A DNA stretch of 64,000 nt from Scatophagus argus (Eukaryota > Chordata > Actinopteri > Scatophagidae): the NCBI RefSeq assembly GCF_020382885.2, contig NC_058504.1:13527019-13591018 (forward strand), read 5' to 3'. The position numbers were made by a program, and so were the translations under genes. Of the stretch, positions 23,738 through 27,302 are shown piece after piece. Below the pieces are notes generated by a model. The model worked only from the letters and a program-made list of their open reading frames with translations. It ran no database searches and had not been told where the DNA came from. Positions within the stretch are counted from its first letter, which is position 1, and each line of letters opens with the position of its first letter.

Positions 23738-26700
23738 TCACTGATCTGGAAAAAAAAAAGAAAAACACGTGATGAATTATAGAAACCAACAAATGTTTGT
23801 GAATAAACATTTAAACTATTAGTCCACTTCAAAACCTAATTTATAACGCACTCACCATCATCAAGACTGATGGTCTTCTGCATCAACCTGGGTGCAAACA
23901 TCATGCGACGAGGAGCAAAGCCTGAAATAAACACGAAAAAAAATTGGAGAATTGAAGCTGCTTTCAACATGCATGACAGCCTCGCATGACAAGCTACAGA
24001 CGCAGCACTGAATCAAAAACCCTTCCCTTTAATCTGTGTCTTCCTACCTCTCTGACAGTCGGGGCGGCCACGCATGGTGGTGCCCTCGACCGCTGTGCCA
24101 GACTCGTCCACACACCAGCAGTAGCCAGTGGCGTGCCAGCACTGCATGGGCAGGTAGCGACCCTGCGCGTCACACTGGGGCTTGTAGGATCCGATCTTGC
24201 TGGGTCCAGGTGCTGCCTCGAGCTGGCATTTGGTCTTGATCACAGTAGCTGAGGGGTGGAAAAGAACATAACATATGAACATCAAAGGTCCGTTTAGTGT
24301 CAAATACTTAGCTCAGTATAAAGATTAGAAATGGGAGAAAAAATGAATGAAAATGATAAAAGTTATCTTAAACAAGTCAGTGATATACATCTTGTGAACT
24401 CCTGAGCACAACACACTGCATCAATACTCAACATAGCTCTCTTTCATAAGGTGTTTTACAACCATCATCTTTTAACCCCTACTGAAAAATTAAGGAAAAC
24501 CACTATCTACTGTAACAGCACCAGTTCGAATCAGAACATCAGCTAAAATGTAAAGAAAAGAAAGTCGCAGTAACCTGCTACAGGTGTTGGGCGTGGAGGC
24601 TTCTGTTGGGCCATCTGGAAGATCAGCCAGTAACGCATCCAGGTCTCAAAGCTCTGCAGAGTGCAAAACATTAAAAAAAAATGACTGACAAGATAATTTA
24701 ATTCTATTCATTGTGACTTTAGTTGTAGTAATTTCCATGTAAATGTGCATGGAGCATTACCTGCCACTCAGTACCATTCATCTGATGCTTCAGGCTTTCC
24801 AGGTTGGTCAGGAAGGTCTCGTTGAAGTGTGGCAGCTCTGTGCCCAGCTGAAAACATGACCACAGTTTAGTGACAATACACAACAACAGTGAAGCGAGTC
24901 ACTCAGGATAGCAAGTGCAACATACCTCAATGAGATCCTTCACCTGCTTCTCCACACTGACAACAGCATCCTGCAGCTTCTGAAGGGAGGAGGCAAACAC
25001 ATTCAAGATGTTTGTTAACGCTGAAATGTACTAATTCATTATACATAATCCAGGACGGTATTTTAAGTCTCAAAAAAGTCTGTTGCCACCATGATACAGT
25101 TAACTTTAAATTTTTCCAGGAGGCAGGTGTAAACCTACAATCATAGGCGTCTTGGAGTCCTCATCTGCAGGGGAGTCCATCAGCAGAGGGAGGGTGTTCA
25201 TGGGCATGTGCATCCTCACTGGAGACACAGCTGTAAAATGTAAAAAAGGTTTTTACTCATGAAAATGATGAAAAAAATGCTTAAATGCATGCATGCACAA
25301 CTGATTTATTGTTTGTTGATCTAGAATTCTATTATTATGCATAAAATAACATTACGCCCCACAGAACAAATAACTGCATGGATGATTTGAACAAAAACAT
25401 ACAAATACACAAATTAAACTGATTTAAATAAAGATCATGTGTAAAATTTCAAAATTATGCTTTTTAATAAGAGCAACTCTGTTGCTTCGGCTGTTATGAC
25501 GCAGGTTGAAATAGCACACAGCCGATTTCCCCTCCCAGTGACTCACTACCAGATCTTTCATTTCCCTGTCCAGGTTTCAAATCAAGTTCCTTAAAGCCTA
25601 CTCTCCTATTCCCTCTTCCTCTCCGACATAGACGATGACTCATTAATAACACATTTCTGCTTGGGCCACCTTGTCTGATTATTGGGACTTAATGTCTCAT
25701 TTTACCCTGGGATGAGCGGGTCAGCTGTCTACCCATTCGCTCCGAGTTCTTCTGCAGTGCATGGATTTGTTCTTTCTGACCGAACACCATGTAGGCAGTG
25801 AAAACCTGGCTGGCGAGGAGCAGACATGCCAGGGTTGTCAGGCCTGCGATCTTCAAAGCACGACTGTTGGAGCCCCTGAGAGAAAGAGCAATATAAAAAT
25901 GCATCTTAGAGGGTAAAGTGGCAGGGGAGAGAAGATAATATGATGCACAAGATGTTTTATTTACAAAATAATCCAAAATATTAAAGTGACTGGGGGGTGG
26001 GGGTTTGGATGCATATCAACATCATCATGCCTTTGGAGCTTTAATGTAGTCACTTAGAGTAAAATATGTTAAAATCCTGAGACAAAAATACAGTCAACCT
26101 TGTTCTTTGTTGCTCATAATCAGCCAATAGAATGCGAGCATCACTTGTTACTAGGCAGACATCTTTCTCTGGCATAAGGAAGTACACAGCCAATTGCTAT
26201 TTAGAGCCTATCTATTGATTTCTTATTAACTTCAACCCGGAAACTGGTGGCATCCAGCACCTATTTTCGAATAATGTACGCAAACAGTGCCATCATATCT
26301 AAGCTAGACATTTTCACAAATATGTCAGTCGGTCCATTGCAGTTTATCTTAAAGAGAATATTATTAAAAAGAAACATTTAATAATTATTAAAACAAAAGA
26401 GTAATGTGATTACATTTGAGACACTGATAAACTGTAACACGCATAAATCATATTTTATAAAGTATATTCTACGTTGAGATGTGATCACACCCTTGGCGCT
26501 TGTTTTCCTCTTTGGTTAATCAATGCAACGATGGACCAATAGCATGAGAGCATCACCAGTTACTAGGCAGACGCCCTTTGTTGGTGTAACGTCAAGAACT
26601 CGATTTAAAGTTGCTCCAAATCCTTTACAATGTATTAAGTGTAGAACAAATTTAACACATAAAATGTTAAAAAGCAATAACTAAATCCATTCACTATTTC

Positions 26701-27058
26701 ATGAACTAATCTGATGCAAACACAAACGGAGACTGTTTTTTTTTGTTTTTTGTTTAGAAGTGACAGAAAAAAACAACTTTATAGCATATTATATGCTCAA
26801 TATGTTACTAACTGGCTACTAACCTGAAATATGTATTAAGTTTTAATAGAGAATCAGCCTAGTCCTGTAGCTAAATGTAGAGGTACATGCACTTTATATT
26901 CTGAAACTACTACTGAGCTAATAACTGCTGCTGTTAAAAGTACAATTTTACATGATAAGCTCCTCTCACCCAGCGGGTCTTGCCGAGAGAATAAGGGCTT
27001 CATCACTGCCTGCCAGGCTGTCCCTGGCCAAGGGAGCATCATCAGGGGAATGAGCCAT
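23738..27058 (-). CDS. cd74: CD74 (MHC class II invariant chain) with thyroglobulin type-1 domain, 281 aa, 9 exons
   Basis: Chaperone of MHC class II in the ER and endosomes. Exons: 27058-26970, 25875-25706, 25230-25139, 24979-24926, 24847-24761, 24653-24575, 24248-24048, 23921-23856, 23745-23738; 846 bases in phase. The type II layout is clear. The cytosolic tail (residues 1-38) has an acidic/Leu-Ile endosomal sorting signal (DEALIL). The membrane anchor is at about 39-61. A CLIP-like Met/Pro-rich stretch ([14 protein letters not shown], about 91-104) follows, then the trimerisation region with two N-glycosylation sequons (NET, NGT) and [14 protein letters not shown]. The thyroglobulin domain (about 191-257) has six cysteines including CWCV. 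The final exon adds only two residues. The Tg exon is symmetric (phase 1-1), so skipping it keeps the frame, as in mammalian p31/p41 forms. Confidence 0.96.
26121..26160 (-). promoter_or_regulatory. X/Y-box-like module 1 in CD74 intron 1
   Basis: Read on the gene strand: TCTGCCTAGTAACAAGTGAT (X1-like, compare the class II X box CCTAGCAACAGATG), then GCTCGCATT, then CTATTGGCTG (Y/NF-Y-like). Order and close spacing follow MHC class II type promoters. It is clearly related to the module at 26533-26571 and to the promoter module. Confidence 0.5.
26533..26571 (-). promoter_or_regulatory. X/Y-box-like module 2 in CD74 intron 1
   Basis: Gene-strand reading: TCTGCCTAGTAACTGGTGAT, then GCTCTCATG, then CTATTGGTCC. 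Same order as module 1 with a few substitutions. The similarity between the copies fades quickly outside about 45 bases. Confidence 0.5.
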
Positions 27059-27255
27059 CCGTCTTGAAAGTTTGTCTCAGCTTCTTCAAAGTACCTGACT
27101 GCAGAGCGTCCGGCAAGACAAGCGGATTAATAGTCTCAAAATTCAGGAAGGACTGGCAGACAGGTTCCTGAGAAAGGTGAAGGGATGTGGAAAAGTCCCC
27201 TGTCTTAAAAAGCGCTGTGGGATGTCTCAGAAAGCTGTGTGAGAGCGTGCGAGCT

Positions 27256-27302
27256 GTGATTGGTCAGAATGTGCCATCATCACTTGTTGATAGAGGCAGA
27301 CA
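27256..27302 (-). promoter_or_regulatory. cd74: CD74 promoter X/Y-box module
   Basis: About 200 bases upstream of the CD74 start codon the gene strand reads TGTCTGCCTCTATCAACAAG, then TGATGATGG (X1/X2-like), CACATTCTG, then ACCAATCAC (NF-Y site in the opposite orientation to the intronic copies). Related to both intronic modules. A possible W/S-like CCCTAAGCAAACC lies further upstream, and a weak NF-kB-like GGGGACTTTTCC lies nearer the gene (about 27190-27201). Confidence 0.6.

Follow-up and report, generated by a model that had tools for sequence, protein, structure and literature searches.

The first intron of mouse Cd74 contains two enhancers, both of which interact with CIITA in vivo (PMC2883540, crediting its reference 19; this paper and the others below are cited from excerpts of their text). 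Their homology to major histocompatibility complex (MHC) class II elements is announced in the title of reference 20 of that paper, which gives as sources for the enhancers references 19 and 20 (Krawczyk 2004, Moore 1998) and reference 52 (Cao 2000). In class II genes themselves the order, orientation and spacing of the control boxes are strongly conserved (PMC2278383), and in most targets of NLRC5 the Y box lies 20-22 bp from the X box, with exceptions at 48 bp (PMC4374748). Here we describe a 64-kb window of the genome of the fish Scatophagus argus (C12:13527019-13591018 of the 570.7-Mb, 48-contig assembly), in which cd74 carries one X/Y site at its promoter and two in intron 1. The two intronic sites match the class II X boxes of the same genome, share a gap of 13 nt between X1 and Y, and probably act as enhancers of the gene.

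Because mouse Cd74 already has two CIITA-interacting enhancers in its first intron, an intronic CD74 enhancer is a known kind of element. Class II-like elements in intron 1, as in a CD74 enhancer of the mouse type, are present in the fish gene at the level of sequence, and the likeness covers the same gene, the same intron, the number of elements and their class II homology, as drawn from descriptions of the mouse elements. The introns differ in length, being 3.9 kb in mouse and 1.1 kb in the fish. The fish modules are a spacing variant of this known kind and not a new system.

X/Y sites in cd74 and their match to class II X boxes

The Pfam families MHC2-interact, MHCassoc_trimer and Thyroglobulin_1 all match the protein encoded on the minus strand (exons spliced by eye). 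The gene is therefore cd74, as a preliminary description of this DNA had proposed, and it includes a thyroglobulin exon of the p41 kind. That description also placed three X/Y sites in cd74, one at the promoter and two in intron 1, giving each intron copy a Y box of canonical orientation and the promoter copy a reversed one; the positions and orientations all agree with the sequence. On the gene (minus) strand the promoter copy reads TCTGCCTCTATCAACAAGTGATG, with CCAAT 17 nt past the end of X1. The upstream intron copy reads TCTGCCTAGTAACTGGTGATG and the downstream one TCTGCCTAGTAACAAGTGATG, each with ATTGG 13 nt past the end of X1. The features, numbered from the first letter of the window, are as follows.

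27281..27301, minus strand: promoter module, pyrimidine tract and X1 (GTCTGCC-TCTATCAACAAGTG), exceeding the class II-type sites by 2 nt; matrix rank only 1381 (see below), aligns with the promoter of the cd74 paralogue
27259..27263, minus strand: promoter module, Y box in reverse (reads CCAAT on the gene strand), 17 nt past the end of X1, read from the sequence; the paralogue promoter is alike
26970..27058, minus strand: coding portion of cd74 exon 1, with its ATG at 27058, read by eye, with Pfam matches on the spliced protein
25876..26969, minus strand: cd74 intron 1 (GTGAGA...CTCAG), boundaries read by eye
26554..26572, minus strand: upstream intron-1 module, pyrimidine tract and X1 (GTCTG-CCTAGTAACTGGTG); matrix rank 1 of 127,952, one of two exact genome matches of the X core
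26548..26555, minus strand: X2-like position of the upstream module (TGATGCTC), judged by eye
26536..26540, minus strand: upstream intron-1 module, Y box (ATTGG) 13 nt past the end of X1, read from the sequence
26142..26160, minus strand: downstream intron-1 module, pyrimidine tract and X1 (GTCTG-CCTAGTAACAAGTG); matrix rank 2 of 127,952, the other exact genome match of the X core
26136..26143, minus strand: X2-like position of the downstream module (TGATGCTC), a poor match to a cyclic AMP response element (CRE)/AP-1 site, judged by eye against the X2 consensus TGCGTCA
26124..26128, minus strand: downstream intron-1 module, Y box that reads ATTGG on the gene strand, 13 nt past the end of X1, read from the sequence

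A relaxed X1 regular expression, designed only after the sites had been seen, matches three times in the window, at the cd74 sites in every case and each time with the start of a Y box within 17 nt. Matches to X plus Y in 200 dinucleotide shuffles of the window averaged 0.085, with a maximum of 1. When an HLA-DRA X1 core was used as the query, five window positions reached at least 11/14 and both intron sites were among them; the promoter site scored 10/14, which is equalled by 33 other positions.

For a comparison within the genome, class II genes were located via PF00969 at four places, with flanking stretches L037 and L038 on C23 and L039 and L040 on C9; MHC II alpha and beta domains adjoin the L037 sites (Pfam). 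Four X boxes, none of them from cd74, went into a matrix: that of one alpha promoter, those of two beta promoters that are nearly identical, and that of a site at L037 8897. Three of these came from a search with the X1 core and the fourth (the L037 beta promoter) was picked by eye. The matrix amounts to about three independent sites; L037 8897 was admitted by its place in the class II region. The latter site (minus strand, C23) is a module of X, X2 (TGACTCA) and Y at 23 nt, and could lie upstream of a gene or be a distal element of the class II region.

Among the 127,952 positions of the window the matrix ranked the upstream intron site first (28.5) and the downstream intron site second (22.1), with the next position at 14.2. 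Both kept these ranks when any one of the four training sites was dropped. The best score across ten other, non-class-II stretches (nine of 10 kb and one of 6 kb, six of them picked for holding an X-like core) was 18.0. By this ranking, X1 of both intron sites is of the class II type, and the promoter copy, ranked only 1381 of 127,952, belongs to another subtype.

Ungapped identities over 25 nt (8 nt before X1, X1 itself and 3 nt after) gave a similar picture. The intron sites share 18-20/25 with the MHC II alpha promoter and one beta promoter of the same genome (the L037 beta promoter is excluded from these figures), but only 13-15/25 with the third X-Y site of the class II region. Against their own cd74 promoter the values are 14 and 16, and against the paralogue promoter 15 and 15. 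The promoter copy has 2 extra nt ahead of AAC in addition to its reversed Y box. It is nevertheless related to the intron copies, its alignment score with the downstream one being reached by 0/2000 shuffles and 0/2607 window tiles; the relation to the upstream one is weaker (19/2000 shuffles and 9/2607 tiles). When 500 nt of the promoter were aligned blind to the entire intron, the score was not significant (18.0, against a mean of 14.6 and a maximum of 24 in 300 shuffles). The three sites had been described beforehand as related modules; all are indeed related and the intron pair is class II-like, but the promoter copy stands apart as a different subtype and not an equal copy.

The intron sites are also unique. 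A 601-bp stretch of the intron has a single match in the genome, and the X core CCTAGTAACNNGTGATG has two exact matches, both in cd74 intron 1. The sites are therefore not a dispersed repeat, since exact copies of the X core are found nowhere else, and a transposon present at thousands of sites, which the preliminary description had named as the outcome that would count against it, can be ruled out. With up to one mismatch the X core has 23 genome matches, compared with 27 for a reversed control. Thirteen of the 21 one-mismatch cores outside cd74 were examined: ATTGG follows at 14 nt in L006 and at 27 nt in L008, and the other 11 have no CCAAT or ATTGG within 45 nt. By eye, L013 resembles a repetitive element and L014 a non-class-II locus. 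The core in L006 (position 1517, minus strand; C4:1782068) has the short gap seen in the cd74 intron, an arrangement that may be due to chance.

A more specific pattern, TCTGCCTRGTNAC followed 12-42 nt on by ATTGG, was designed with the sites already seen and has 10 genome matches, against 1 for the reversed control. Four of the 10 are the two cd74 intron sites and two identical copies of the MHC II alpha promoter, and only in these four is X1 followed by TGATG.

The cd74 paralogue and the wider locus

Teleosts are on record with both CD74a and CD74b (PMC6523485), and the genome of S. argus has a cd74 paralogue (L031, C10). In its promoter (L031 6631) the pyrimidine tract and X1 stand in the same long register, X2 reads TGCGTCA, and the Y box is reversed (CCAAT) and lies at 18 nt, a gap close to the 17 nt of the cd74 promoter in the window. 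The alignment between the two promoter copies was equalled by 3/2000 shuffles. Moreover, when the three modules of the window were compared with 1.7 kb upstream of the paralogue, all of the best alignments fell on this one promoter site, with scores that are singly modest (124, 203 and 40 of 1000 shuffles as good).

Intron 1 of the paralogue contains an X box, AGTCTCTGCTTGGCAACAGCTGATT (L031 5461, minus strand), with the top class II-matrix score in its 10 kb (19.4), which was reached by 0/200 intron shuffles (their maximum was 18.8). The paralogue is thus like cd74 in its pyrimidine tract, long-register X1 and reversed Y box at the promoter and in a class II-type X box in intron 1. It differs in that its promoter X2 is the consensus TGCGTCA, whilst its intronic X box is single and has no Y box; a regular expression for an X+Y module found none in this intron. 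An intronic X box in both genes hints at, but does not establish, an origin before the cd74 duplication. A promoter-like alignment in paralogue intron 1 (score 15.5; 2/1000 shuffles as good) was set aside because it lacks the AAC of X1 and, as judged by eye, adjoins an apparent inverted-repeat element.

Elsewhere in the 64-kb window are coding stretches of a nucleotide-sugar transporter, an HMG-box protein and a heparan-sulfate N-deacetylase (NDST-type); NDST1 adjoins CD74 in human too. An NF-kB-like site, GGGGACTTTTCC, lies in the cd74 promoter region (27189..27200, minus strand), just downstream of a TTTTTAAG stretch, and was called by comparison with the NF-kB consensus.

Proposed function of the intronic modules and its alternatives

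We consider it probable that the two class II-type X-Y modules in intron 1 act as RFX/NF-Y/CIITA enhancers of cd74. The RFX complex would bind X1 (CCTAGTAAC) and NF-Y the ATTGG of the Y box, and the two together would recruit CIITA. These intronic complexes would cooperate with the promoter's own RFX/NF-Y site and so reinforce the promoter, with the outcome that cd74 would be switched on jointly with the MHC class II genes. The preliminary description had suggested modules of the RFX/NF-Y/CIITA type that could serve as enhancers or alternative promoters. Its first half holds, as the matrix places class II-like X/Y elements in intron 1; for the second, an enhancer would be their likeliest role, and we infer that the factors bind, that CIITA is recruited, that the modules are active as enhancers and that other species have kept them. 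Exons with an RFX5_N domain occur at three places in the genome, which may include relatives of RFX7.

The likeness to the canonical S-X-X2-Y class II module lies in the pyrimidine tract, X1 and Y, which stand in class II order and orientation, and in the 25-nt identity of the X region given above. In both intron copies a Y box of canonical orientation (inverted CCAAT, that is ATTGG) is present downstream of X. The differences are a gap about one turn shorter (13 nt versus 23-24), an S box at background, a poor X2 and the intronic position.

The first three of these differences are among several points that weigh against the enhancer reading. From the end of X1 to ATTGG there are 13 nt in both intron modules, whereas the class II region of this fish has gaps of 24, 24 and 23 nt (the two values of 24 come from the two identical alpha copies). 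The gap is thus 10-11 nt shorter, about one turn of DNA, and the fixed X-Y spacing of the canonical SXY module is absent from the intron copies. In older work, class II promoters reportedly tolerated full helical turns better than half turns. No S/W box rises above background, the best matches to the S core being 7 and 7/12 in the intron copies and 8/12 in the promoter copy, with 2000 random 60-nt stretches as background. By eye, X2 is poor, both intron modules having TGATGCTC at a position where MHC II alpha has TGATGTCAT and the paralogue promoter TGCGTCA, which is the X2 consensus. Moreover, the base after CCAAT is A in both intronic Y boxes and not the preferred C or G.

The comparison loci also have points on this side. 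The class II beta stretches L039 and L040 on C9 have no such X box (best matrix scores 11.3 and 8.9). The beta promoters on C23 (L037 2166 and L038 2157, minus strand) have a strong X box but no CCAAT or ATTGG within 40 nt, as judged by scan for L038 and by eye for L037. Therefore, the Y box is not universal and the class II promoters of this fish are not uniform. The intronic X box of the paralogue scores barely above the best background site (19.4 versus 18.0) and has no Y box within 40 nt, and the intron modules of the window do not align with paralogue intron 1 better than shuffles do (404 and 555/1000 as good). RFX5_DNA_bdg had no match in the genome, a result that is uninformative as the controls likewise had none. 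Lastly, in human chromatin immunoprecipitation sequencing of CIITA the only site named in the excerpt lies near the CD74 start (PMC4243378), and a salmon study, in the part cited, argues that the enhanceosome is not the driver of induction by IFN-gamma in its cell line (PMC7573153).

An alternative that we regard as unlikely is that the downstream intron module is mainly an alternative promoter. As in mouse, it would give a shorter cd74 transcript that starts before exon 2, and with it an isoform lacking the cytosolic tail encoded by exon 1. From the Y box of this module it is about 250 nt down to exon 2, with a candidate start codon in between:

25902..25904, minus strand: ATG located 29 nt before exon 2, from which an open frame continues in register into that exon, read from the sequence; could be chance

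This ATG is a possible start of an N-terminally altered isoform, and the open reading frame of the mouse intronic transcript begins at a comparable point, 23 nt upstream of exon 2 (PMC2883540). However, a single in-frame ATG near exon 2 is easily a product of chance, and the mouse intronic promoter is described as lying downstream of both enhancers and having no TATA, CCAAT or Sp1 elements (PMC2883540).

A second alternative, which we consider very improbable, has another RFX protein (one of RFX1-4, or RFX7), or NF-Y without a partner, occupying the sites for a use unrelated to CIITA. Several RFX proteins can read the half-site CCTAGYAAC, X2 and S are weak in the intron modules, and the three places with RFX5_N-type exons would fit this option if some are indeed RFX7 relatives. 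Against this, 18-20 of the 25 positions over the pyrimidine tract and X1 are identical to those of the MHC II alpha promoter and one beta promoter of this fish, and human CD74 is given as a CIITA target (PMC4243378).

The intron copies align with each other at a score of 30.5, compared with a maximum of 19.5 in 300 intron shuffles, and the best alignment spans 64 columns. Beyond it the 5′ flanks do not match (307/500 shuffles as good), and between the 3′ flanks there is a weak match (21/500). An abrupt end to the similarity, as given in the preliminary description, is thus roughly right. That the copies are an old local duplication kept by chance, with no present function, would account for this alignment and for the weakly alike 3′ flanks, but is a very poor prospect: what the copies share lies chiefly in the X-Y module, they have the same X-Y gap, and each resembles class II X boxes, a likeness not to be expected of a random duplicate.

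Returning to the enhancer reading, it is conceivable, although we put it forward tentatively, that an RFX/CIITA enhancer in intron 1 predates both the teleost gene duplication and the split of fish and tetrapods, and that in this fish it consists of a pair of compact X-Y modules, each shortened by one helical turn as a spacing variant of the class II enhanceosome. Searching by title and abstract, with subscription papers thinly covered so that absence from print is not established, we found no account of X/Y boxes in fish cd74. The salmon study cites a zebrafish study to the same effect as its own, namely that MHC is induced by IFN-gamma without the RFX/NF-Y enhanceosome (PMC7573153). In the present genome, class II-type X boxes occur at MHC II promoters, at the promoter of each cd74 paralogue and within intron 1 of cd74. 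Their presence argues for retention of the enhanceosome code in at least this one teleost, and suggests that fish may rely on the machinery that controls mouse CD74 and class II genes.

The modules offer two small, unique sites for testing whether fish use the enhanceosome. For a zebrafish cd74a driver line, the 2.6 kb preceding the transcription start were used (PMC11058276), and therefore intron 1 lies outside that construct. Moreover, the 13-nt gap is a natural test of how rigid X-Y spacing is. If the tentative reading of an ancient RFX/CIITA enhancer in compact form is true, the class II enhanceosome would tolerate a spacing one turn shorter, and fish cd74 would depend on it.

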